From Antedon bifida (Eukaryota; Echinodermata; Crinoidea; Comatulida; Antedonidae): a DNA stretch of 64,000 nt. This document shows, piece after piece, positions 31,852-62,627 of this stretch. The translations under genes and the position numbers were made by a program. Each line of letters opens with the position of its first letter. Within the stretch, counting starts at the first letter, position 1. The notes under the pieces were generated by a model that saw only the letters and a list, made by a program, of their open reading frames with translations, was not told where the DNA came from and searched no databases. Where the stretch lies: positions 22,568,001 to 22,632,000 of the forward strand of contig OY727097.1 in NCBI GenBank assembly GCA_963402885.1. The letters run 5' to 3'.

Positions 31852-33995
31852 CTAGTTAGCACCTTGTCGTTTGCGTATCAACGCCGTATACTGTACATCG
31901 TTTAAAGCAAGCGCTTTGCAAATGTCTCTTGCCTCCTCTTTAACAACGATGTTATCTTCACGATAGTCACTGACATCACGCTTTGACGTATCTATACACT
32001 CGTCTTGAATTGCCCCAAGCCGACCTTCAAACTCCGCCAAATCATTCCAAAAACCTGGCCCATATTCCGTAATCTTCTTCCAAAGTGTTTGGTTGTAATA
32101 ATCGTAAAGTTGTTTATCGAGTGCGTTCCAGTTTTGTATTTGTAATTTAGTTTCTGGACTAATTTGATAACGAATGCGGGAATTACGAATTCCTTTAGAG
32201 ATGTACAAAATGTCATCCCAATTCCAACATAAAGTGTTTTTCATTAAAACCAACGAATGGTTGAAATATTCTGATATTAATACAAAATCGAGTTCTTGTT
32301 TTAACGATGTAAATACGTTATGAAATATAATTTTATCAGTCTGTAAATTTGTGTCCAACCCTAAATCATATATCTGACCATTTTTAGCTTGATTTTTAAA
32401 GTAGAAACCGGGTGTGTTGTAAAATTTATCAGGGTCTTGAAAAAACGTACCAATGGGGTCATCAACATCTTTAATTCCCGCACTGTGTGCGAAATCAAAA
32501 TATCCAAATGAAGATTCAAATTGAGACACTGGGTTTCGGAGGATCGTGACGTATGTTGCATTTGGGAATACCGCTTCCATTTCTTCGCGATTGTATCTCA
32601 CGTGATTGGTTAAAAAATGGTATTGATGTTGAGTATTGCTTCGATGGATCATGTCACGTTGGAAGTGGTTATAGCTTGATATAACATGAGTACCAACTCC
32701 TACACCAAAACTTAGATTACGTGAATAGCCATATCGTTCGAATATGGAAGCTAAAGTTGTGCTTGCAGTTTTGTGTGTTTTTATAAATACGATTCTGTTT
32801 GTTGGTCTACATTGTGATATGCCTAAACGGGACTGTGTAGGCCTACTGACAAAATCGTTAGGACGCCCATCTGCCATGTGTAATCTGAAATTAAGTAAAC
32901 ATGATATTGTCAAATATTGCATGGACTTGTTGGTACTCCATGGATATTGTAAGCTTACACCACATCACAATATGTGAAGCTGTACCGCGAGTCAAACTGA
33001 AACCCCAACGACTTCGATTGTTTAATCAACTGGCTTCGCTCCTTACCAATGAGGACTTCAAATCTAATCGATGTTGGCCAATTATGTTCATTCATTATGT
33101 TGTTTACATTACATTTAAATGAACAGAATATCAGATTATGAAGTACTATTTCTGACCCCTGGCAGGCCTCTCTGATATTATCAGAGCATAAAAACTCTAT
33201 TTTCGAAAATAGGCCTTACTCGTTTAATATCTGGGCGGCTATGATCAAACATTGTTCATTACATTATTGAAATTAACATTTCTTTGATTGAAGAAACATT
33301 AGCAAATGTCAAATACAATTTAGCGTAGGGCCTACATTATTAGTGATAGACTATACTATATACGATAAATAAATAACTTGAAAATAATTGTTCCTTCTTT
33401 TTTCTACATATGTAATTTTTTAAAGTTTTAAACTTGCTAATTGGATGTATTTATTGTAAAATAGTATACTGATTAAGTTTAAATTAAAAAATATTATAAT
33501 GAAATGTTTACAATTGTTATTGTAATGAGTAAATGTGATTAATACACAAAATAAAAAATAGGGCCTATATATTTAATAATAATCGTACTTTCGTGCTTTT
33601 CAAAATGTTGGCCTAATTCTTGGACACATTTGTCGAATAGGCATACACGAAAAGCAACAGTTTTAGGCCTATAACGGAGTAATAATAAAATATAATATGT
33701 ATAATAATGTAATGTTAAGGTAATGTAGGCCAATCAGCCCAAAGTACCTAACTTGCACACTTAGTTCTGATAAATATTTGGATATTGTGTCTTTTCCTAT
33801 CCTTCACTATTTACAAATCCTCCAGCAACATTTATTTTGCCGAAACAATTTCATGGGTCTCTAAGAAACATTATTAACTTACCTGTACCGGATATCAGAA
33901 TCTGCATAATACGGTTCAACATAATGAGAAATCAACGTGTAAAAAAACATTACACAAAGTGCAACGAAAATTAAAATCCGTATTTGCCGTCGCAT
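31852..33995 (-). CDS. galactose 3-O-sulfotransferase-like (Gal3ST family)
   Basis: Transfers sulfate from PAPS to the 3-OH of galactose on glycolipids or glycans in the Golgi lumen. Two exons, 33883-33995 and 31852-32884 (GT-AG; AG|A makes an Arg), give 381 residues, close to the 423 of human GAL3ST1. Exon 1 encodes a short basic start (MRRQIR) and a hydrophobic signal-anchor of about 18 residues, the expected type II topology. The 5'-phosphosulfate loop is KTHKTASTT at residues 73-81. The 3'-phosphate motif is YVTILRNPVSQFESSF at about 149-164. A TNHVRYN segment precedes it, as in the family. Several NxS/T sites are present. Invertebrates carry many Gal3ST paralogues, so the acceptor sugar cannot be assigned. 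Starting inside exon 2 would lose the membrane anchor. Confidence 0.88.
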
Positions 33996-36938: not shown

Positions 36939-38294
36939 TCAAATCTCCACTATTGCAATTTCACTTTCCTCCTTTTTCACATCTAACATCAACTTTCGTG
37001 AATGCATTTTCCTATGCTTTTTCAAGTAATCATTATCAATAAATGTTTTGCCACAATGTTCACATAGAAATGATTTTACCTCTGAATGTAATCTTAAATG
37101 TCTTCTTAAATGACTATTTCGTTTAAATTCCTTACCACAGTGTTCACAAATAAAAAGGATTTCTCCTGTATGTACACTTAAATGGCTTTTTAAATAGACA
37201 CTTTCACGAAATGTTTTACCACAATGTTCACATTGAAAAGGCATCTCTCCTGTGTGTATTTTAAAATGCTTTTTTAAATAGCTCCTATCACGAAATTTTT
37301 TCCCACAATCTTCACATTCAAGCGTTTCTTCTGTATGCGTTATTAAGTGTCTTTTTAAATTAGTACCTCGGTTAAATTTCTTTCCACAATGTTCACACTC
37401 AAATGGCATCTCTCCAGTGTGTATTTTCAAATGCCTATTCAAATCACCTTGGCTGCCAAAATTCTTCTTACAATTTTCACATTCAAACTGTGTGTTTGCC
37501 GTTTTTAATGTTGCATGTGATATCTCTTCATGTTTTTTCAAATGTTTTTTTAAGTACTCAATATCACGAAATTTCTTTCCACATTGTTCACACTCACATT
37601 TTTGCTCAGCTTCTCTATTGTGTGTTCTTATATGTCTTTTTAAATTACTGCTTAGGCTAAATTTCTTCCCACAATGTTCGCATTCATGTGGCTTCTCTCC
37701 AGTGTGTATTCTCAAATGTCTTTTCAAATCACCACTATTGTAAAATTTCTTTTCACAATGTTCACACTCAAATGACATCACTCCTGTATGTATTCTCAAA
37801 TGCTTTACCAAACCACAGCTATCTCGAAACTTCTTCCCACAATGTTCACAATTATATGGCATCTCTGCAGGACTAGTAATAGTATGTGTTTTTAAATGTC
37901 TTTTCAAATTAAATTTGTGACTAAATTTTTTTCCACAATGTTCACATTCGAATGGCATGTTTCCTGTGTGTATTTTTAAATGTCTATTAAAATCACCAAC
38001 TAGGATAAACTTTTTTCCACACTGTTCACATATATATGGCATCTTTTCTTTATGTTTTTTCAAATCACAACCATTTTGAGTTGCATTCTCCACTAGCTGC
38101 CCATAATCTTCAAGAACTTCTTTCTTAACGTATACCGACAAATGAATTTTTAAACTTGGCTCAAAACTGTCATCAGACTGTTCAGAATTATGTTGATTTC
38201 CTTGCCTTTCAGTTTCTGAATTGATTTTAGAATTCTGATTCGATATTTCACCGAAATCTAAAGGCACATTTGTCCTCAATTCCATTGTTGTCAT
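36939..38294 (-). CDS. C2H2 zinc finger protein, 12 fingers
   Basis: Probable nuclear DNA-binding protein. From ATG at 38294 (MTTMELRT) one exon runs to the stop at 36939, about 451 residues. An acidic, Ser/Gln-rich stretch of about 85 residues with no KRAB, SCAN, BTB or ZAD domain I can see precedes twelve C2H2 fingers. Most have the form CEHCGKKF...L..H...H joined by HTGEM/HTGEK-like linkers; fingers 2/3, 5/6 and 6/7 have longer linkers. All twelve keep their Cys and His pairs. Helix residues vary strongly between fingers, as in lineage-expanded arrays. The frame is open to 38345, but TTTTACAG at 38333-38326 is a good acceptor, so an upstream exon could supply another start. Confidence 0.85.
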   Translation of the reverse strand: MTTMELRTNVPLDFGEISNQNSKINSETERQGNQHNSEQSDDSFEPSLKIHLSVYVKKEVLEDYGQLVENATQNGCDLKKHKEKMPYICEQCGKKFILVGDFNRHLKIHTGNMPFECEHCGKKFSHKFNLKRHLKTHTITSPAEMPYNCEHCGKKFRDSCGLVKHLRIHTGVMSFECEHCEKKFYNSGDLKRHLRIHTGEKPHECEHCGKKFSLSSNLKRHIRTHNREAEQKCECEQCGKKFRDIEYLKKHLKKHEEISHATLKTANTQFECENCKKNFGSQGDLNRHLKIHTGEMPFECEHCGKKFNRGTNLKRHLITHTEETLECEDCGKKFRDRSYLKKHFKIHTGEMPFQCEHCGKTFRESVYLKSHLSVHTGEILFICEHCGKEFKRNSHLRRHLRLHSEVKSFLCEHCGKTFIDNDYLKKHRKMHSRKLMLDVKKEESEIAIVEI

Positions 38295-38345
38295 GGCTGT
38301 TCTTCCATCACAATTGTAAAAATCACTGTAAAATTTTGTAAACAA

Positions 38346-38820
38346 GGTTTATTAAAAAATATCATTTATCATTGATAAATAAACGTGCAATTCCACGGTA
38401 ACAGAATTACACATTTTCCATAATTTGATAATTGAATTACTTGTAATGTATGCTTTATTTTGTAATTGGTATGTACGCACTATCTACGCATGTGTGCCAC
38501 TGTTAAAAAAGTGTTGTTCCAAATAAATATTATTATTATTATTATGGTGGTTGATTTTATGTTATGTTCCTTTTTGCTTGTAAAATATACCGTCTAGCAG
38601 AAACTGGCCTATCAGCACAACAAACACCATGTACACACAGAAATGTGAAACGTTGATAAAACTATTCTTAAATATAAAATAGGCTATTTCATAATTCTTT
38701 TACATACTGTAGTTTATTACATTTGTATCACGAACTCAACTCGTGGAAAGAACACATTTAATTTATTTATTGTGAACAATTATAAATCAAATTCATTTTC
38801 GTGGACCCGATCATCTTTCC
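38346..38820. other. spacer upstream of the zinc finger gene
   Basis: Mostly AT-rich. It contains one CACGGTAACAGAATTACACA motif (near 38392), related to the motif array in the USP intron, and an (ATT)n tail at about 38528-38543 preceded by CAAATAAAT, probably a LINE 3' end. Confidence 0.4.
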
Positions 38821-40822
38821 ATTATTTTTATAATGGGCCCAATCAACAAATTAATTTCGAATTTTGGTTTTCAACGTGATTTTGTATTATGGATTATAAG
38901 TTTTCTTACGAACAGATGTCAGAGGGTCTTAGTTAACCAAAGACACTCGAATGTACGTATGACAAGTATTGGATCCCCCCAGGGTTGCGTCCTCTCTCCT
39001 CTCCTGTATATTATATACACGGATGACTGTCGCAGCAAACAGGACAATAGTCATCTTGTTAAATTTGCTGACGACACTGTCTTGCTGTCTCTCCTTCAAA
39101 ATTCACAGGACGGCCATGGTTCCGCTTTAGATGATTTTATCCAATTTTGTGGAAACTCCTACTTGGAACTCAATGTGACCAAAACCAAGGAGATGATTGT
39201 AGATTTTAGGAAGGAGAAAGGACGCAACCCTTGGGTATCCATTATAAATGACGAACCAGTCGATATTGTCCATTCCTTTAAATACCTAGGTACTATATTT
39301 GAGGACAATCTCGGCTGGGAATTAAACACAGAGGCAATAGTAAAGAAAGGACACCAGAGACTTTATCTGTTAAGGAAGCTGAACCATTTTAATGTCGATA
39401 AAGTAATTCTTAGGGTTTTTTATAATTCCTTTATTGAGAACGTTTTAACTTTTTCCTTTATATGCTGGTTTTTTAGTCTTAGGGTCAAAGAGAAAAACTC
39501 ACTACAAAGAATTGTTAACTTAAGTTCTAAATTAATAGGTTGTCAACTTCGTAGCTTATCTTCTTTCTGTGACATGCAAACTCTAGAAAAAAGTAGAGCT
39601 ATTCTAAAAAATATTAACCATGCCTTGTTCAGTGATTTCGAGCTCATGCCTCATGGGCGTCGCTTTCGAGGGTCCTCCTAAATACCAAGACCTACCAAGA
39701 CCTACCAAGAACTACCAAGACCTACCAAGAACTACCAAGACCTGTCAATTTAAAGTGTTAATTTAACGAAATATGATATATATAGACTTCTAATAGCATT
39801 TCCAACAATAAAACCTTAATTTTAGCGCGATATAGACACCAAAAATGTTAAATAATCGACAAGCTTCGCGTTCGCGAAACGAACTGAGTTGATGCATACA
39901 TTGCGTCACAAATGTCCGTATTGCGTCAACTAGTATGACCAACCAAGACCTACCAAGACCTGTCAATTTAAAGTGTTATTTTAACGAAATATGATATATA
40001 TAGACTTCTAATAGCATTTCCAACAATTTCAGCGCGATATAGACACCAAAAAATGTTACGAAAATGTTAAATAATCGACAAGCTTCGTGAAATGAACTGA
40101 GTTGTTGATGCATACATTGCGTCACAAATGTCCGTATTGCGTCAACTAGTATGGCTCACTGACACTCGACGCAGTTCTCCTGTCATAGGCCACTGGGTCG
40201 TAGGCCTACATTTAACATTTTTGGTGTCTATATCGCGCTACAATTGAGGTTTTATTGTTTGAAAAGCTATTAGAAGTCTATATATATTATATTTCGTTAA
40301 AATAACACTTTAAATTGACAGGTCTTGGTAGGTCTTGGTTGGTCATACTAGTTGACGCAATACGGACATTTGTGACGCAATGTATGCATCAACTCAGTTC
40401 GTTTCGCGAACGCGAAGCTTGTCGATTATTTAACATTTTTGGTGTCTATATAGCGCTAAAATTGAGGTTTTATTGTTGGAAATGCTATTAGAAGTCTATA
40501 TATATCATATTTCGTTAAATTAACACTTTAAATTGACAGGTCTTGGTAGGTCTTGGTAGTTCTTGGTAGGTCTTGGTAGGTCTTGGTATTTAGGAGGACC
40601 CGCTTTCGATGCCCGGCATGTAGAACAAACCGGAAAAGGAATTCGTTTTTGCCAGTGGCTATTCGACTCTTAAATTCTTGAACCTTGACTTGACTTTTTT
40701 TCTATTTTGTACTGTGTATTGTGATATTTTGTATATTTTGTAAGATCATTTTAATCCAGACCTTTTTATTTGAATTGCCCCGTGTGGGATGATTAAAGAA
40801 TTTTGAATTGAATTGAATCGTC
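38821..40822 (+). mobile_element. Rex1/Babar-like LINE, 5'-truncated, interrupted
   Basis: Reverse transcriptase reading frame 38833-39672 with hallmarks SPQGCVLSPLLY, KFADDT (catalytic Asp pair), LNVTKTKEMIVDFR and FKYLGTIF. It then continues after a 932-bp insertion from 40602 with the conserved C-terminal PVAIRLLNS and a stop near 40675. The 3' end has an AATTGAATTGAAT repeat tail near 40800-40820. The order and wording of motifs resemble the Rex1/Babar clade known from fish. The endonuclease and early RT are missing, so it is a dead copy. Confidence 0.82.
39670..40601. mobile_element. 932-bp foldback element inside the LINE, TSD GCTTTCGA
   Basis: Ends are GGGTCCTCCTAAATACCAAG and its inverted copy, followed by short arrays of ACCAAGACCT/ACCAAGAACT. 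The arms carry the same landmarks in mirror order (CTGTCAATTTAAAGTG, GACTTCTAATAGC, GACAAGCTTCG, TTGCGTCAACTAGTATG). The left arm has a second, partly deleted copy of this block. GCTTTCGA is duplicated at 39662-39669 and 40602-40609. Removing the element and one copy restores the LINE reading frame. No ORF. Confidence 0.92.
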
Positions 40823-42443
40823 TAATTATGTTGGGCCCGAACGTCCACGCACGCGTTGGTACCCGATCGTCTTGGAATAAGCCCGATCGTGTCTACTAAA
40901 AGCCATAGTTAGAGAGGCCTACGCCTACGGAACATTAGCGCCAGGGATCTCCAACGCCAGAAGTGATATACTTACTACAGAATTGTTACAGCTGTAATAA
41001 TAGAAACGCTATATTTCTTGATTAGGCCTTGTCTATCACTGTTTATCAGATTCTTCGGTGATGAGGGGCGAAGGCGGGAGGGGAGAGAGAGGAGGAGGAC
41101 GACAAGTTACAACACGTATCCGCGAAGTATGCGAAGCGCAGACAGAGTCTGTAATCTCTTTGAATTGCGCCCTCTATTGAGCACGTGACTGACATTCAGT
41201 TGACATTTAAAATCCGTTACTTCCGTTTCTCTCCCACGTTGTTTTCGTCACTTGAGGTTGGCATAACAATAAAATAACGAATTTGTTAGGCTTGTCATCA
41301 ACACTTTAACTTATAAACATTCTAAATAACATTTAAAAAATACTATGAACACATTTTAAAGCAAAAATAATATTGTTTGAATATTGCTGTTTTTTTTGGT
41401 ACAAAATAACATAATTTTTGTATGTTATTTAATTTTTTATAATACCAATTATTAGAAGTTTTTTGAAAATGGACTATGGTCTTATGGGTAATATGGATAG
41501 TTTCACTATGGATTGCACATGGTCATAACCGGGAAATAATTGAATATACGGAATGGGAACCGGGCAAAATGTGAACTTTTACTGATATTTACATGGAATA
41601 TGAGCATTTACCAATTTGTATAAACATTCATTTTTTCAAGACGAAACTTGATATTGCTTACATCCGACACAATGAAGATGGCAATTGAGTATTTATAATT
41701 ATAATTATCGGTTTGTCAAATTAAAACGCCATTTTTTAAAGATTGCGCAATCAACAGAATACTGCCGACCTCATTAAATAGTCGCATGTCTTATCTGTAA
41801 ATACATACTTATCAGCGAGGAAATTGTTACCACACATTCTAAAAGTATTTTCTGTAATAGAGTGTTTTTTTTATAAACTAAAATATGTTTACGATTGTGT
41901 TTGATGCAAGTATATTATATATTTTTAAAAATGCAATTGTACTTACCCCTAATAAAACAAATGGAACGATCCAATTTACACTATGTGATTGGTTGTTGTG
42001 GATTATACCATTGTCAAATAGGTAAGTAATTATACAACATTGTTATTGTTAATCAAATATATTGAATGGCATGTAATCCAGTTTTTAAAAATAATTAAAC
42101 ATAATTTATTGATTTATAGACTGTTTTATAAGAATTGTTAACACTATTAAAATATAATATAATATAACAAAATAACAGAGAACAAAATGATTGATATAGG
42201 TCATCAAATAAATCAAAGAATTTGATCGATGACATTGACGACATTTATTTCTAATGAGGTATTTGTTATCAGTAACTGATAATCTAAGATTGGAAAAATA
42301 TTTGAATAGTTAGTTGTACATTCAGCTTTCAACAGAGATAGGAAATCTGTAAACTAATTCACATTACTTTCATATTTGGACAAGAAAGAAAGAATGTTCT
42401 TAAACTTCCTACTTAAATCCAGTAACGTAATACAGTACTTAGT
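40823..42443. other. spacer downstream of the RAG1-like gene
   Basis: No gene recognised. Bases 41050-41240 are relatively GC-rich with CpGs, possibly a promoter or CpG-rich spot; the rest is very AT-rich. I searched here, on the plus strand, for a Kelch/PHD-type RAG2-like frame convergent with the RAG1-like gene and saw none. Confidence 0.45.
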
Positions 42444-42446
42444 AGT

Positions 42447-42652
42447 AGATGTATTGTCCTCAAAAAACATGAAAAATAAAGATAAAGCCAATTTGACTAT
42501 TTTTTGCTTTAAATTACAGTTTTTTAGGTAAATACATTTTCTTTCGATCCAATTTTTGGTCAAAGTGGATACTATTAGGTGACATTCAAATGGCATATTC
42601 AACAAAAAATGTTTTAATAATTATTTTTTTCAGGAAGACAATACATCTTTAA
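42447..42652. mobile_element. short MITE-like repeat, copy 2 of 3
   Basis: About 206 bp with inverted ends GATGTATTGTCC and GACAATACATC. The interior matches 31383-31605 and 48236-48345 block by block. It lies about 155 bp beyond the RAG1-like stop codon. No ORF. Confidence 0.65.
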
Positions 42653-42807
42653 TAATTTGTTGTTGGGCACAAAGATTGCACATGAGATTTTTTGTTTTCT
42701 GTATTATCACAAATTTTATACTCTATCCATTAAAAAAACATTATTAAGATCAACTTCAAAACCTGTGAAGATACAACAATCTGTGAAGATACAACAGTGC
42801 CAGTACA

Positions 42808-45800
42808 TTATTCCTCAATTTTCCTTTTATTGGCCTTCTTTTCAGGAATCGCCTTTAGAGTTGATGGACTGCACGAAACCCAGTGATTTTTCACCACTGA
42901 CAGCAAAATGGTTAATCTGTCTGTTGTTCTGCCACGGTAGTCACGTTGGATGCCATTCAATCTTGCGTGCATTGACTCACCACCTTGTTCGCCATGGAAT
43001 CCTAATCCCACCCCCCATTTCTTGATCCATGGTATGATATGCTCGCACAATATGTGAAATTTTGGAGGCTGCGTTTCATGGAATGTGGCGAAAATCTCTT
43101 TATAGATTGATATATTTTGTTCTGTAGGTAACAAAAGCAAAGTTGTCATTTATATTCTGAATGCTTAATATTTATTTAATAATAAATATGCAATTATTTA
43201 AAATTTAACAAAGATTTCTGTACTGTACATACGCAACTGATCAATTTCAGCATTCCCGAATTGTTCTGCTGAATTGTATAATCTGTGGCAGGCTCCAAAT
43301 GCATTAAATAACTTTGTGTAGGCCACAGCTACATCTTCAGCCTCCTTCAAAAGAGTTGGACAAATGGCTTGGACAGTGTGGGTTATTCCATCCATTAAAT
43401 ATTTAATATTTGTTGTCTGAAATGATTTAATTTATTGTTTATTCAAAATGCAATTATTAAAAAAAAACTGAAACAGCCCATGCCACATTTGTAAGTCATC
43501 AACGTCAGCTTTATACCTACCATGTACAATTTATGGATATGGTTCCCAACAAAACACTGTCCCCAGTATGCCTGCCTTGTTATGCCCATTTTGATCAAGC
43601 GTTTGTCCAACTCCTCACAAATGGGACCCGTTCTCTTCAAAAAAGTTGGAGACGGTGGCGTGGCTTCAATATGTTCATTCTACAAAATAATCATGACATA
43701 ATTCACATAGTTTTCTCATTCAATTTGCTTTGTTCAATAATAACAATAAAATATTTCTTATACTTACATGAGCATTTAATTTCTCCATTTTCTGATTAAT
43801 CTGTGTAATCAGTTCAATTGCACAATCATCATTTCCATGACCAAGTAAATTAAAAGCATTAAAATAATCAGTCATTTGGCCTATCTCCTGTTCCAGATTT
43901 TCCTTTTCATTTAAATGGTAACGCAAACATTCATTATGTTCCACTAACTGAAAAATAGGGTTAAAAGGGTCATTGTAAGTAACATGGATGGAATGCTCTG
44001 TATACAGGGTACCAACAAATGAAATTATGATGTACCTTAATGTACTCTTTACGAGCAATGCTTGCATTGATGCCGTCAGCTTGTTGGGCCATCTTTTTAT
44101 CGAGTGTGTGGCATGCATCCTCTAAACTTTGATAATGCTTCAACCCAAGGCCTAAGCTAATATGCAGTCCAGGTGGACAAACCTAATTGTAATGAAACAT
44201 TCTTTATTTAAAACTGATGATGGTATATTTATTCAAACATTAATCATACAAGGCAGAAATTATATATATAATTTTTCTGATATAAAAAGCATCAACTTAT
44301 CAACTCTTATCAAACAAACAGTTTGATCAATCTATGAGCTTTACAGTACTTACATGATCAATGTCAATGTCGAGTATTGGTGAACTTATTACGTTGTTGT
44401 GAAACTTTGCATTTTTCAACATGCTTCCATTGCTTGCAAAACTGTCCAAATCTTTCTTCATAGATTCTAGAGATCTTTTTGTTAAATCCACTTTACCCTT
44501 CGAACTCAGGCAATATAAGCAAAAGTGTCGTCCTATAAAAAATACATTTTTTTAGTATTAAACTATTTATGAGATATTGCCTAATATAATACTAGGTTCC
44601 AGTGTATTAGAATTACAGTACTTACCACTTGCTCCGGATAATCCGTAAACACGGCATTCATATTCGTAATCCCCGAAAGCAAACAATTCAATTTCTTTTC
44701 CACTGAAATAAAGGAAGAGGTATATATTATGTACAGAATTATGAAACATAAAAAATACATACTTACCACTTTGCTTCAGACAATCCATAAACACGACATT
44801 TGTATTTATAGTACTGTAGCTGAATGCAAATAATTCAATTTCTTCTCCACTGAAATAAAATAAAAATAAATCAAAACATATAGTGAAATCATAAATAGTA
44901 AATACTTTTATAAATTGTCAGAACTGTTATGATATAAACTACTTACTTCCACACCAATGTCTTGAGGTCTTCAACTTGGTTCCTAATTCTCTCCATTCCT
45001 GTTTTTAAATTGTAGGTGCAATCGCCTGCTTCCCATATCAAAATTGTAACTGTATTTTTCAAAGAATTGGGCCGGTCAACATTGCCAATTTGCAGCATAA
45101 ATTTGTAAGTTCCTCCTCCTTTGTCTCCGCCTAGTTTAATCCATATTTTATTTTCTGGTATCAAACCATTGTGCCAAGTAAGCATATCAAGACTAAAAGC
45201 AATAATAAAACAATATTGTGTTCATATTTCAAATGCTTTGAAAAAAAAATCTAATGAAAAAAAGAAAGAACATTTGATAAACGTGTGTATTTATACCTTT
45301 GTAGCTCATCTAACAATTGTGTTACTTTCACTCTTAAGTTTTTCACTACAACTAATGGCACATCTGTGAGCAACAACTCATCTGTCTTGGTATCTTTCAC
45401 TAGCAATGGCACATACTCAGATGTCAGATTGTCGCCTATGATCTCATCAACTTGACAGCCAATACTGGCTTCGCATTCACAAATGACCCGGTACTTTGCT
45501 AACCATCTAAAAATAGAAGAAATAATAGTTTGGAACGGATGCTTATTTTAAATGAAGTAGATTGAATAATAGGTTGAAATAATAATTTGGTTTTATTTCA
45601 GAATAAATAAATGTCTAAATAATAAAATATACCTTTTTAATAATCTTGTTCTAGAGCCACTTAGTCCAAGGTGAGTTCTCATTGAGAGTATATCTCCTTG
45701 GGGCATCCTAATGGGTGTTCGAAGCATAGTCTTTAATTCTTCATTTAATTGGGAAAATTCGTGTCTGTGTTGTTCTAATTCAGCATCTTCTCCACTTATC

Positions 45801-46986
45801 AGTTTTCTGAATTGTTGAATCTGTGAAAGCAAAGGTATCAGTTGTTGAAATTGACGATTGATTCAGAAGTTCCCTTATAAAACATTAACAATCAACTTTT
45901 GTACCTGGTGTGTCCTCCTGTCTTTGGTTTTTTTTGATGCTGTATTTGACGACACTCTAACTGCAGGTATCTTCATATACCTAACCGTCTTCAAAACAAA
46001 AAAGAAAATATGAATAAATTTAACAGTATAGTATGTACACGGTCAATTGTAATTATGAGAAAATAAAGAAATGTATTGTACCTGCCCCTTTGATCTGAAG
46101 GTAGCTATACCATTTTCTGCTGTTTTGGCAGACAGTAGTTGGTGCCCTAAAACTTCGACATTCGCTTGCACAGGGCTTGTGGAAGGTTGTTTTGCATAAG
46201 TGTGTTCTTTTAAGACACACACATGTGTATTACACTGTCGACATTCAAACTGACACTGACATTTCTTACATTTGACAGCAACAGACATATAACATTGAAT
46301 GAAAAGATCAGGTACAGCAGTGACAGACAAGTAGTGTACATTAGTTAAACAGGTAGGACAAATCATGAACTCGACATCAACAAAACAAGTATTAACACAT
46401 GCTTTACAAGCAACATGATGACATGGTAACTCGACAGGACATTCACACAATACATTACAGATGCAACACATGAATGGTCTTAGAGAACCGATAATGTTGT
46501 AAGAATCGGGAATAGTTGTTAGTGTTGTGTTTATTGGTTCAAAATGCTTGGTAACTGATGAGGTATGAGCCATTTTTCTTTGACACTCTGCATTTCCACG
46601 TCCCCTCTTCTTTTTCTTTGGCCTTCCACCTATGTGATAACAATTAACAATGGCTTTAAAAGTATTTGCTGTACATTAAAAATATAAACAAAATAAATTT
46701 TCTCTACCAGTATTAACTAACCTTTTCGTAGTTTATCTTCACAGATGTTACATCCTATTCGTTTATGTGGCGGCCAGTCCTTGCAGGAAATTTGTTGTTT
46801 TTGGACAACACACTTGATGTAGCAGAGATTACAGAATGACGATGGAGTTACGCTACTATCTTCATCTCTGCTAACATTAAGCTGTTCCCAATAGTCTGCC
46901 ACTTTCTTTGACCGAGAGCCGGCTTTGTTTAATTTAATACCACACACTCTGCAGAGTGTACACAGTATTTGTTTGTGGTTTTCCAT
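42808..46986 (-). CDS. RAG1-like protein (zinc region, RING, DDE transposase core)
   Basis: Thirteen coding exons (46722-46986, 46082-46629, 45905-45988, 45633-45820, 45297-45506, 44947-45192, 44626-44702, 44354-44532, 44036-44182, 43768-43947, 43521-43679, 43233-43416, 42808-43121), all GT-AG, give 926 residues. The N-terminus has C12xxC15, C52xxC55, H74 and C79xxC82, as in the RAG1 N-terminal region. A GGRPKKKKRGRG basic motif is at 89-100. A C3HC4 RING spans 143-182. In the core, Asp455 (GGD), Asp525 and Glu871 are candidate DDE residues. Asp525 lies 19 residues before C544xxC547, the D708-C727 spacing of human RAG1, with a shared GL. H845 and H850 match H937/H942, and VVKNHW matches VLKHHW. 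Alternatives are an N-RAG-TP-like or ProtoRAG-type transposase; no terminal repeats or RAG2 partner were seen. Confidence 0.85.
44626..44702 (-). other. RAG1-like exon 7b, carries the second catalytic Asp
   Basis: A 77-nt exon (phase 2 in, phase 1 out) with acceptor TTTATTTCAG|TGG and donor AGTG|GTAAGTAC. It encodes GKEIELFAFGDYEYECRVYG followed by LSGASG. Asp525 in AFGDY is at the position of RAG1 Asp708. It is used in the main model because it keeps the expected Asp and the GLSGASG run into the zinc Cys pair. Confidence 0.85.
44767..44849 (-). other. RAG1-like exon 7a, tandem duplicate without the catalytic Asp
   Basis: An 83-nt duplicate of exon 7b lying 64 nt upstream of it in transcription order, with equally good splice sites and the same phases (length 3n+2). 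It reads GEEIELFAFSYSTINTNVVF and then MDCLKQSG. Its first half matches 7b, but small indels put its second half in a different frame from 7b, so the Asp and GLSGASG are lost. Including both exons would break the frame, so they could only be used alternatively, unless 7a is simply a decaying copy. Confidence 0.75.
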
Positions 46987-47700
46987 CAATCTGCCAAAAA
47001 AAAAAAAAATTATGATTACTCTATTCTAATGTACTTATCTGGTATACAGGTACAGGTCTGGTATGTCTATACAAAGCACATAGTAGGCCTACTTATGTTG
47101 ATTAATACTATGCCTAGGCCTAAAATACTAATTATAGGCTTATTAAATAGCAGTAAAACATTCTAACATAATTATAAAAAAATAATTATTTCCCAAGTCT
47201 TACTAGGATATTTTGTCTCTATTTTAATACAAATTTAATTTAAACCATTTCATTTATTACCAAAAACTTCGTGTAAAGAAATATAAGCAGATACTTAAGT
47301 ACCTAGATTAGTTTTGCGGACTTCGTCATTGACGAAATCTAGGCCTATCACTAAATAAAATGATCAAACTTTTCCAACATTATAAAGTTGAGATAAATTA
47401 TAAATTTTACACGTATGTGTAAATCTTGTTTAATATATTTTAAAAATATAACTTACGTTGAGTTTGTTGATTTACTTTGTCTTAAAACAGGGAAACAAAC
47501 AGGGGGTACTATTGATATTATACGAATCGGCGACGAAATTTCAAAACAAACCAGTGAAGCGTATCGCGATACGCGCTAACTGCCAAACCTGAGGGCGCTG
47601 TCGCTGAATGCGTCCGTCGCGGATACGTGACAACAACACAATAAACATGCACAAAAAAAAACGGACGCGACGTGTCGATGATGGCAGCAGATTCGGTAAC
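46987..47700 (-). promoter_or_regulatory. probable 5' untranslated exon and promoter region of the RAG1-like gene
   Basis: The coding start exon is preceded by a good acceptor (poly-pyrimidine tract, GGCAG at 46995-46991), four bases before the ATG. The best upstream donor is CTCAAC|GTAAGT at 47457-47456, which would make a non-coding first exon from 47457 upwards. The stretch 47530-47660 is CpG-richer than its surroundings. No TATA box was identified. Confidence 0.45.
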
Positions 47701-52839: not shown

Positions 52840-54178
52840 CCATGGGGTCATATTTGACCCGTCACATGACTTACAGTAGTCATGTGATTTTACTAGGCAA
52901 ATGTTTTAACAAAAAAATCACTGCAAGACCCATAGGCACAGATAAGGCACAGTTTGAGGTCAACAGGAAGTCAATTGAGCCTAGAGTTTTTTGTTACAGT
53001 GTTTATACAATGGCTTCTTCAAGCAGGTAAGCATGCTTTGTTGTCTTTGGATCTTCTAAAGCCTATAACATCTAAAATATTGTGTTATTATTTGTTTTAA
53101 AAACTAGATAGATATTATCAATAGACTTTATAGTTTTAAAAAATGGGGACATATATGCCCATATGGCCCTCTCTGTTGTGGAACATGAGTCATGTATGTC
53201 CCAATGGGTTACCATGCTTGTATTGTGTTATAATTACCCAAATTCATATGTCAATAATTTACAGAATGTTTAATCTTATTATGACTTCAAAAATACGAGA
53301 CCATAATATTATTCATTTTCAAAACATTTTCTTATAAAATTATTTTTATTGTGTCTAATTTATAATTGTAATGTTTTATTATATTTTTTTTTTATAGTAA
53401 TCGTCAAAGACGTTTTAAATGCAATTGATGGAAATGAAAGCGAGTATCTAGCAGTGACGATGATGGTGATACAGAAAATAAAGATTTATCTTTTGAGTAG
53501 GCCCAGGGAGTTAGTTGTTATAACAACTCTCTAGTAGGCCTAAATCAAGATGAGATCAGTGGTGATGAAAGTAACGAAAGCGGTAGTAGCGACTCGACAA
53601 CAGTGAGGATGAGCAAATTTTGCTGGGCCTGAAAAGAAGGGTGGAAAACAAAAAAAAAGCAAAAAAAAAACATACAAATGGCAAAAGAAACAATTTGAAC
53701 CAGAAGACACCGCATTTGCAGGGCCAGCTTCTATCCAGATATTGTGGGTGTTGCTACGCCATACGGATATTTTAGAAGGTTTTTTACTGCAGCTGCAGCA
53801 GCAGCTATTGACATGATTGTTGAAAACACTAACATTTACAGCATGGGTAAAACCGGAAAGTGTGTCAACACAAATAAAAAAGAAATCGAACAGTTAATTG
53901 GAATTTACTTCAGGATGGGCATCGTACAAATGCCGGGTGTAATTAGGGTATATTGGGAGAATGAAACCCAGTATGTTCCTGTAGCCGATTTTATGAGTCG
54001 TAATCGCTTTCAGATGTTCCTAACAACAATACACTTTGTAAACAACAATGCCGTAACTGAAGAGGAGAAGAAAAATAAACTGTGGAAAATAAACCCCTTC
54101 CTCGAAATGCTTCGTACTGAATGTACAAAAGCTGTCGGAAGAACATAACTCTGTGGATGAAATGATGGCTTTATCTTT
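52840..54178 (+). pseudogene. piggyBac transposase relic A, N-terminal part
   Basis: A short first exon (MASSSR, 53012-53028, donor GTAAGC) is followed by an intron ending TTTTTATAG near 53398 and an acidic N-terminal region broken by frameshifts. An open stretch at 53744-54148 has the piggyBac signature TPYGYFRRFF, then NKKEIEQLIGIYFRMGIVQM and FMSRNRFQMFLTTIHFVNNN. It breaks after a trace of the catalytic SVDEMM motif near 54150-54165 and fuses to the PC4-like unit. Upstream, 52840-52900 contains hairpins (GGTCATATTTGACC; GTCACATGACT/AGTCATGTGA) that may belong to the element's end. Confidence 0.75.
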
Positions 54179-60176: not shown

Positions 60177-62627
60177 TTACAGTTTGAAAGTGTAACATCT
60201 GGTCACAGACTATCATGATGTCATTCAAAATACGATGGCGGGAAAAACCGTTGAGACGTATAAATACGTCACTGGCAATGGTCCAACAATTTTATTGACT
60301 TTGCCAGGAACGTAAATATACATCGGGGATTTTCCGCGCTAAAATCGGTCAAACTGTTCATATACGTCATTGTCCACGCTCATACGTCATTGTCCACGTG
60401 CATGCGGTACATCATTGCCCACATTGCTGTTCACAATGGCGGAAAACATTAGTGCTGACCAAGCTATAGCTATACTTATGGCAGACGATGAAGATGATGT
60501 AGATACAGATTCTGATATGCGATCAATTGATGAATATAGTGAAGATGACATGAGTAGTGATTATGCAGATAGTGATCATAGTATCACTTCTTCGGATGAC
60601 ACAGACGTAGGCCCAGCAGTGGTGATGCGTGGTAGACCTGTACCCCGCGGGCGTGGCCCAAGAATGAGAGGAGGGCGCGGACGAGCAGTCGGTCGCGGAA
60701 GGAATGCATCTCCAGTAGGAAGTCCAAGACGTGGTCGTGCACCTCGTCGTGTGCCGCGTGGTGCTGCTGCTCGCCGTGGTGCTGCTGCTCGCCGTGGTGG
60801 TGGGCATCATGTATGGACAGACGTTGCAGAGGACCCACCAGATTTTATATTTTCAGAGATCCCTGGATTAAAAATCCAAATGCCAGATGATGCATCACCC
60901 TTTGATTTTTTTGAATTGTTTATTACGCCACCGATAATAGATATGATGGTTACCGAAATGAACAAATATGCTATATCGGAGATCAATAAAAACAGACCGT
61001 TGAAACGTTCTTCACGTATGCATGCCTGGTACAATACGAACGCAGTTGAGATGAAGAAGTTCCTTGCTCTAATGATTCAACTTGGTCCAAATAATAAACC
61101 AACATTGGAGCACTACTGGAGCTCTAATGTCTTGTACAAGAACACATTATTCGGCGGTGTTATGTCCCGTAACCGTTTTCAACTAATGTTACGATTCTGG
61201 CACTTCGTTGATAATGAAGCACATCATGATGATAGATTATACAAGATACGACCTCTTGTGGATCATTTCAATGACACGATGAAGAACATTTATTATCCAA
61301 CAAAGAAATTGTGCATTGACGAATCAATGGTACTTTGGCGCAGCAGGCTACTATTTCGACAGTACATAAAGAATAAACGCCACAAGTATGGGGTGAAATT
61401 TTATGAACTATGTGAATCGCGAGGTATGATCATAAAAATCGCTATATACACTGGAGCTGGGTTTATTGAAGATAATGAAGACCTAGGACTGACTGCAGCT
61501 ATAGTTTTAGAACTTATGAAAGATTACCTGGACAAAGGCCATGTTTTGTATACGGACAATTATTATAATTCTGTAGGGCTGACAAAACACCTAACCCAGC
61601 ATTCTACATACTTATGTGGAACGCTCAGATTTGATCGCACCGAAAACCCCAAGGATGTGGTAAACAAAAAATTGAAGAAAGGAGAAATTGAATGGAAACG
61701 GTCCGAATCAGTAGTCGTTTGTAAATGGAAGGACAAACGAGACGTGCTAACAATATCGAACATGCACAGAGTTGAGATGGTCGATGTTACGAATCGAAAT
61801 GGTAAAATTCAGAACAACCCAAATATTATTGGCGACTACAACATGGGAATGTCCGGTATTGACACGTCCGACCAGATGTTGTCTTATTATTCTTCTTTAC
61901 GTAAGACGCTTCGCTGGTATAAAAAGATAGGCCTACATATAATCGAGATGTGTATTATAAATTCCCATATAATGTATAAAGATAAAACCGGGAAAAATAT
62001 GTCACTTTTGGAATTTCGTGACAGTCTGGCAGTTAGTTTGTTAGGAGATGCATATACTGCTCTTCAGGAGAAAGGGGACCCAGTCCCAATCCCACCTGCC
62101 CCGGCCGGGGCCGCATTTCATTACCTTGATGTGCTGCCAGCTTCGGAAAAGAAAGCCAATCGTGCCAAAAGATGCGTTGTCTATGCAAAAAATGATTATT
62201 ATTATTATAGCGTAATTATAGTATTTATTTCCAATGACGTCACAAGCTGGGGTCAATATCTGACCCCCATCCTCGAGAGATAAAAACAGTAAACCACACT
62301 GAATCATTTCATCCTTTATTATTTTTATTTACTATTAGCGCAATTTATGACATGTTTGAGATGATTATATTGAGTGTGAGGGCGCCATCGTATCAACCAT
62401 ATTCAATGCATGAGGGAATAAACACAAACAAACATATGACATTTATTTTTAGATTATCGTTTACGTACATCATTCATAAACTGCCATGCGATAATTCCTG
62501 TTCCAATCACCACTGCCAGCGATTCTACATACAATACAAAAGTGCTACGATTTTGACGTAGTATTACGTCTTGGCAAGTAGCGACACGCAATTTTTGACG
62601 TATAAATACGCCGTGGCAGTGAACGTG
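60111..62627 (+). mobile_element. piggyBac element, nearly complete, TTAA target
   Basis: 2517 bp from CACATTGACTGCC (60111) to its inverted partner GGCAGTGAACGTG (62627), flanked by TTAA at 60107-60110 and 62628-62631. The same host sequence without insertion is seen in copy B (CAGCTGTTAAATTATAATC, about 59017), confirming the TTAA target. It carries one transposase gene. Confidence 0.92.
60436..62283 (+). CDS. piggyBac-type transposase
   Basis: DDD transposase that cuts and reinserts the element at TTAA. 615 residues from ATG at 60436 (MAENISADQ); the open frame extends 66 bases upstream but without an ATG. An acidic N-terminus is followed by an Arg/Gly-rich segment of about 75 residues. 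The DDE_Tnp_1_7 core follows: MSRNRFQLMLRFWHFVD, first Asp in LCIDESM, second in VLYTDNYYNS, third in GMSGIDTSDQM. All three Asp residues are present and the frame has no stops. The C-terminus is odd: after KKANRAKRCVV the usual cysteine-rich zinc domain is replaced by a Tyr-rich run coded by ATT repeats and an unrelated tail. That domain binds the ends in piggyBac, so activity may be impaired. Confidence 0.92.
   Translation: MAENISADQAIAILMADDEDDVDTDSDMRSIDEYSEDDMSSDYADSDHSITSSDDTDVGPAVVMRGRPVPRGRGPRMRGGRGRAVGRGRNASPVGSPRRGRAPRRVPRGAAARRGAAARRGGGHHVWTDVAEDPPDFIFSEIPGLKIQMPDDASPFDFFELFITPPIIDMMVTEMNKYAISEINKNRPLKRSSRMHAWYNTNAVEMKKFLALMIQLGPNNKPTLEHYWSSNVLYKNTLFGGVMSRNRFQLMLRFWHFVDNEAHHDDRLYKIRPLVDHFNDTMKNIYYPTKKLCIDESMVLWRSRLLFRQYIKNKRHKYGVKFYELCESRGMIIKIAIYTGAGFIEDNEDLGLTAAIVLELMKDYLDKGHVLYTDNYYNSVGLTKHLTQHSTYLCGTLRFDRTENPKDVVNKKLKKGEIEWKRSESVVVCKWKDKRDVLTISNMHRVEMVDVTNRNGKIQNNPNIIGDYNMGMSGIDTSDQMLSYYSSLRKTLRWYKKIGLHIIEMCIINSHIMYKDKTGKNMSLLEFRDSLAVSLLGDAYTALQEKGDPVPIPPAPAGAAFHYLDVLPASEKKANRAKRCVVYAKNDYYYYSVIIVFISNDVTSWGQYLTPILER

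Follow-up and report, generated by a model that had tools for sequence, protein, structure and literature searches.

The transposon and its transposase gene

The stretch of DNA considered here (the window) comprises 64,000 nucleotides from the crinoid Antedon bifida (contig OY727097.1, positions 22,568,001 to 22,632,000, or C10:22568001-22632000 in the genome searched, which amounts to 315.6 Mb in 27 contigs) and carries, on its minus strand, a 13-exon gene whose N-terminal region resembles that of RAG1. It is highly probable that this gene encodes the transposase of a cut-and-paste transposon of the Chapaev group (CACTA/Mirage/Chapaev, CMC) that is complete and was recently mobile. The features of the element are collected in Table 1. 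Three findings go beyond what a first-pass annotation of the window had described: the exon 7 duplicate, what may be a 5' untranslated exon, and the ends of the transposon, which lie outside 42808..46986.

Three-frame translation of 47500-42500, joined at the splice sites, gives minus-strand exons that run from an ATG at 46986 to a TAA at 42808, are separated by GT-AG introns and form one stop-free frame of 926 residues, as first proposed. Spliced alignment of the protein to the DNA with a purpose-built program returned the same 12 introns. In the relative L036 (on C12, 41.5% identical to the window protein), 9 of the 12 agree in residue and phase, and in L041 (on C8, 39.5% identical) 8 do, with one more placed three residues off; each relative also has an intron without a counterpart in the window gene. 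The recurrence of intron positions and phases suggests that the exon junctions are more than chance, although the intron calls in the relatives were guided by the window protein, so that intron conservation lends support to the predicted gene model, short of proof. The transposase gene looks intact.

The ends of the element were identified by copy-to-copy comparison; an inverted-repeat scan by itself did not pick them out among the 25 of 463 rows listed. A second copy at C10:22747483-22753997, approximately 132 kb away and in the opposite orientation, was compared with 14 kb of the window and is 99.86% identical over 6,520 columns, the alignment having a single mismatch and two gap openings. 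Its protein is identical at 925 of 926 residues, with no stop and no frameshift. Similarity between the two is bounded precisely by 41113 and 47629, and the flanks beyond are unshared. The window element has ACAA on both sides and the second copy CTCA on both sides; these different 4-bp duplications around nearly identical copies show that the element was inserted twice, separately and recently. For a third copy (C8:21401649-21415304), identity amounts to 98.6% and 99.3% over its two long pieces and to 89.3% over a piece of 431 columns; its 5' end is missing the final 109 bases, its last exon holds roughly 7 kb of additional DNA, and it was read with two frameshifts. The terminal 488 and 530 bases have three genome matches each, one of which covers only 421 of the 530 bases. 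With complete ends, few genome matches and a near-identical copy, the element is rare, complete and young. A search for an empty site of the window insertion at other places in the genome was negative: the sequence made by joining its flanks matched only the window's own two flanks. The ends begin with CAC and have the CA..TG form (CACGTATCCGCG...CGCGGATACGTG) which, together with a short duplication (4 bp in both of the copies that have both ends), is characteristic of Chapaev (CMC) elements; CA..TG ends and duplications of 2-5 bp are described for the wider clade to which Chapaev belongs (PMC12730594).

Copies of this kind could also be made by segmental duplication, as might be suggested by the proximity of two of them on one chromosome and by a related family on C8 that appears to have spread by segmental amplification. 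However, similarity stops precisely at the inverted repeats, the window element and its C10 counterpart having no flanking sequence in common, and the 4-bp flanks match within each copy and differ between copies. Segmental duplication of the window element is rejected on the strength of these limits and flanks, its probability being vanishingly small.

The gene had also been interpreted as either domesticated or a recently silenced transposase. A host gene of transposon origin, maintained by selection, would be in keeping with the intact 926-residue, 13-exon frame and the conserved intron positions, but domestication entails the loss of transposon ends and mobility, whereas here the inverted ends are intact, the 4-bp duplications are exact, and two near-identical copies, one of them a young second insertion, occupy different sites. 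The third copy is broken by its extra DNA, and comparison with the broken copy gives 6 silent and 11 residue-changing codon differences, small numbers that reveal no clear constraint. Domestication is therefore rejected on the evidence of the ends and target duplications, and is considered very unlikely. Silencing is likewise unsupported, recent mobility having been demonstrated instead.

Table 1. Positions of the transposon, its transposase gene and associated features, counted from the first letter of the window.
Feature	Position	Strand	Basis
Complete transposon (6,517 bp) with CACGTATCCGCG inverted repeats at its ends	41113..47629	-	Limits of similarity to second copy
Terminal inverted repeat, 12 bp, 3' side of gene	41113..41124	+	Read at limits
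Terminal inverted repeat, 12 bp, 5' side of gene	47618..47629	-	Read at limits
Target-site duplication ACAA, left	41109..41112		Read at limits
Target-site duplication ACAA, right	47630..47633		Read at limits
Transposase gene, 13 coding exons, 926 aa	42808..46986	-	Translation, spliced alignment, conserved introns
Possible 5' untranslated-region intron (GTAAGT ... ggcag ahead of attgATG)	46991..47456	-	By eye, sequence alone
Exon 1: N-terminal zinc region, Chapa / RAG1 importin-binding-like	46722..46986	-	PF12560, profile to RAG1
Exon 2: GGRP basic motif, C3HC4 RING, then further zinc pattern	46082..46629	-	PF13920, profile to 1rmd
Exon 3: DUF1280 match starts at aa 290, near exon end	45905..45988	-	Pfam
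Exon 4: inside DUF1280 match	45633..45820	-	Pfam
Exon 5: inside DUF1280 match	45297..45506	-	Pfam
Exon 6: D455 (KLGGDKGGG); DUF1280 match ends here	44947..45192	-	Pfam, alignment
Exon 7 duplicate, 83 nt, splice sites kept, without catalytic Asp; outside the 13-exon model	44767..44849	-	Sequence comparison
Exon 7: D525 (FGDYEY)	44626..44702	-	Alignment
Exon 8: zinc ligands C544xxC547	44354..44532	-	Alignment
Exon 9: invariant CPPGLHISLGL	44036..44182	-	Alignment
Exon 10	43768..43947	-	Translation
Exon 11	43521..43679	-	Translation
Exon 12	43233..43416	-	Translation
Exon 13: H845xxxxH850, E871 (HGEQGGES), VVKNHW, stop	42808..43121	-	Alignment

N-terminal region and catalytic core

The N-terminal Cys/His pattern, the GGRPKKKKRG motif and the C3HC4 RING, all noted in the first-pass annotation, are present in the window protein and conserved in L041 and L036. 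When these three family members were combined into an N-terminal profile, the best match in the PDB was full-length RAG1 at residues 102-379 (1.3e-9), and a solved RAG1 N-terminal piece (1.4e-5) and the RAG1 RING/zinc-finger domain 1rmd (4.7e-5) were also matched; the other matches, among the 60 of 76 listed, were RAG1 entries or RING-domain proteins. The Pfam family RAG1_imp_bd was matched in two of the three members of the N-terminal alignment (best 4.3e-8), and RING at 7.3e-4 among the relatives. Because of the profile result and the Pfam match of the relatives, the case for homology between this region and RAG1, which had been suggested earlier, is convincing. For the window sequence alone the signal is lower: the piece following aa 1-118 reached 0.02 with the RING model PF13920 (15.2 bits, cut-off 27), the whole 926-residue protein matched neither the RAG1_imp_bd nor the RING model in Pfam, and a single-sequence PDB search ranked RING proteins such as RNF213 (8.7e-4) over the RAG1 RING domain (0.0038). 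The order of domains, a zinc-rich Chapa domain and then a RING, is that of Chapa + RING Chapaevs. The N-terminal zinc fingers and RING of RAGL/ProtoRAG/TransibSU are equally present, but are common to Chapaev and hence non-discriminating.

For the catalytic core, which had been described as RAG1-type, profile searches lead elsewhere. DUF1280 (PF06918) is the sole Pfam family above cut-off for the whole protein (1e-17, 64.9 bits, cut-off 25), aligned over aa 290-510 and profile positions 2-219 of 220, and was matched in all three core sequences of the family. The Pfam RAG1 model found nothing in the core to E=10, and the core profile retrieved no RAG1 or Transib chain from the PDB, its four matches being all unrelated (E 0.94 or worse). 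By profile, the core is thus not a RAG1 core but a DUF1280/Chapaev core, and the RAG1-core assignment is rejected as having no profile support. DUF1280 is described as comprising putative Chapaev transposases and is grouped with RAG1 in one small clade (PMC3985635), so a remote kinship of the window core to the RAG1 core is likely. Repbase places Chapaev under EnSpm (PMC4455052).

L041 and L036 both conserve residues D455, D525, C544, C547, H845, H850 and E871; of these, the broken copy L037 keeps H845, H850 and E871, the part from D455 to C547 being unaligned there. The RAG1-like spacing reported for the core is real in that 19 residues separate D525 from C544, followed by CxxC (544/547), HxxxxH (845/850) and the Glu, and the C-terminal V-K-x-H-W is found as VVKNHW near the end of the protein. 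What does not hold is its specificity: C(2)C and H(3-4)H between the second D and the last E, conserved here as in Chapaev (CMC) transposases, are common to EnSpm, Mirage, Chapaev, Transib and RAG1 (PMC12730594), and the pattern therefore cannot single out RAG1.

These observations also bear on whether the element could be of the RAGL/ProtoRAG/Transib type, that is, a true relative of the RAG1 core. The RAG1-like N-terminus, the near-RAG1 spacing of D, D, CxxC, HxxxxH and E, and ends that start with CAC would all suit such an element, but its core matches DUF1280 and neither the Pfam RAG1 model nor any RAG1/Transib chain in the PDB, its duplication is 4 bp rather than 5 bp at two sites, and the frames scanned behind the gene gave no RAG2 match, whereas 5-bp duplications and RAG1L-RAG2L pairs are described for RAGL elements (PMC7204232). 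Over the 1.7 kb behind the gene (41113-42808), 21 stop-to-stop frames of at least 40 aa are listed, the largest of 134 aa; the 10 of these that were scanned (50-134 aa) gave no RAG2 to E=10 and no Pfam family above cut-off, although such a scan could miss a gene split into many short exons. Genome-wide, the zf-RAG1, RAG1 and RAG2 models gave no match, but neither did they in the control genomes, and absence is therefore not established. Taken together, a RAGL or Transib identity is extremely improbable.

Several points weigh against the assignment to a mobile Chapaev-group transposon. The terminal inverted repeat is short (12 bp), and although target duplications of 4 bp are usual in Chapaev, the range published for the wider clade is a looser 2-5 bp. 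The proposed Chapaev placement is drawn from the DUF1280 profile and published descriptions, the gene model is read from DNA with predicted splicing, and the clustering of the candidate catalytic residues D455, D525 and E871 is deduced from conservation and spacing. For the window sequence alone, aa 1-118 matched PF12560 (RAG1_imp_bd) at 2.8e-4 and 21.0 bits, below the curated cut-off of 23.3, and when the N-terminus was submitted as a single piece of 257 residues, Pfam gave no match up to E=1.

In the mechanism proposed for the Chapaev-group element, the transposase would bind the CAC...GTG ends, and its RNase H-like DDE domain would cut these ends and join them to a target staggered by 4 bp. 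By analogy with RAG1, the N-terminal region may dimerise and/or act as a RING ubiquitin ligase tuning transposase level or target choice; ubiquitin ligase activity is reported for the RAG1 RING (PMC4411706).

Duplicate exon, related genes and neighbouring features

The segment 44753-44859 is 78.7% identical to the exon 7 region (44611-44712) and contains the duplicate of that exon. The duplicate is entered at phase 2 and left at phase 1, like exon 7, and including both breaks the frame; the matching phases thus make either usable, but never both. Its reading is without the FGDYEY stretch that holds D525, and its letters are identical in all three copies of the element. In L035, an 82-87% relative, the alignment passes directly from exon 7 to exon 6, the duplicate being absent from it; an exact-string search of L035 says nothing about the duplicate, as the exon 7 string itself was also unmatched. 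It is conceivable, if rather unlikely, that the element is still jump-competent and self-regulating, the duplicate replacing exon 7 with the frame kept and the D525 stretch lost to yield a binding-competent, cutting-dead isoform with a RAG1-type RING. If true, this would provide a living model of a RAG1-type N-terminus governing a transposase before V(D)J recombination. What most deserves further attention is that the element is intact and young and that its duplicate exon and exon 7 exclude each other.

DUF1280 occurs at no fewer than 68 places in the genome, so that the host carries many Chapaev-like genes, and both C8 and C10 hold fragments with 58-82% identity to the window protein. A second RAG1-N/Chapaev gene, whose product of about 927 aa shares 40% identity with that of the window gene, is present at C8:21.55-22.21 Mb and on C22 (L041-L050), with 20 places in all among the DUF1280 matches listed (19 on C8 and 1 on the 45.8-kb contig C22). 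Its copies are mostly 98-99% alike in long pieces and lie in both orientations, and 6 of the 10 fetched are without internal stop or frameshift (a stop at codon 928 being counted as the natural end). The DNA 2.4-3.5 kb upstream has been amplified along with this gene, at 16 places in the block and one at C8:11.18 Mb, which points to the spread of this C8 family by segmental amplification and not by simple hopping.

Elsewhere in the window, a reverse-transcriptase fragment (38776-39681, RVT_1 1.2e-14) is apparently interrupted, as judged by eye, by a palindromic nested repeat with several units of 130-400 bp that lies right behind it (39670-40601). An uninterrupted transposase frame of 646 codons (60343-62283, DDE_Tnp_1_7 9.6e-91), which we take to be of piggyBac type, and a second fragment of the DDE_Tnp_1_7 type (53699-54148, 1.7e-20) are also present. 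Two minus-strand frames are perhaps host genes, one encoding a galactose-3-O-sulfotransferase (31852-32964, 4.5e-64) and the other a C2H2 zinc-finger protein (36939-38348, zf-C2H2 in 11 stretches).

Comparison with known systems

The window element shares with RAG1/RAGL/ProtoRAG the N-terminal zinc region, the basic motif, the RING and the domain order and, in the core, the 19-residue D-C spacing, CxxC and HxxxxH (the RAG1 residues being D708, C727, C730, H937, H942 and E962; PMC4914335). It differs in a core that is dissimilar by profile, a 4-bp duplication, and the absence of a RAG2-like partner from the frames scanned behind the gene. Spacing also diverges, with 20 residues in RAG1 against 21 here between the second His and the Glu, 108 against 70 between the two Asp (D455-D525), and 207 against 298 between Cys and His (C547-H845). 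The case is a warning that zinc-ligand and catalytic spacing alone are insufficient to identify a RAG1 core. N-RAG-TP is, like the window element, a mobile element with RAG1 N-terminal-like sequence; in its published description it is wholly RAG1 N-terminal-like, whereas the window element also has a full transposase core (PMC8355894).

Closer are the animal Chapaev transposases represented by DUF1280 (PMC3985635), whose profile is matched over nearly its whole length, although the match leaves out D525, the zinc ligands, E871 and the RAG1-like N-terminus. Chapaev transposases with a Chapa domain and a RING have already been published (Kapitonov and Koonin 2015, PMC4411706), and with these the window element shares an N-terminal Chapa-type zinc region, then a RING, and a Chapaev-type core. 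Likened to them by the description given there, it shows no qualitative difference; what is new is an unusually intact and very young member of this kind. In the window element a RAG1-type N-terminal region is joined to a core that is not of Transib type, in support of the published view of this module as older than, and untied to, the RAG1 core. The element also makes available a natural protein in which the former function of the N-terminal module in a transposase can be tested.

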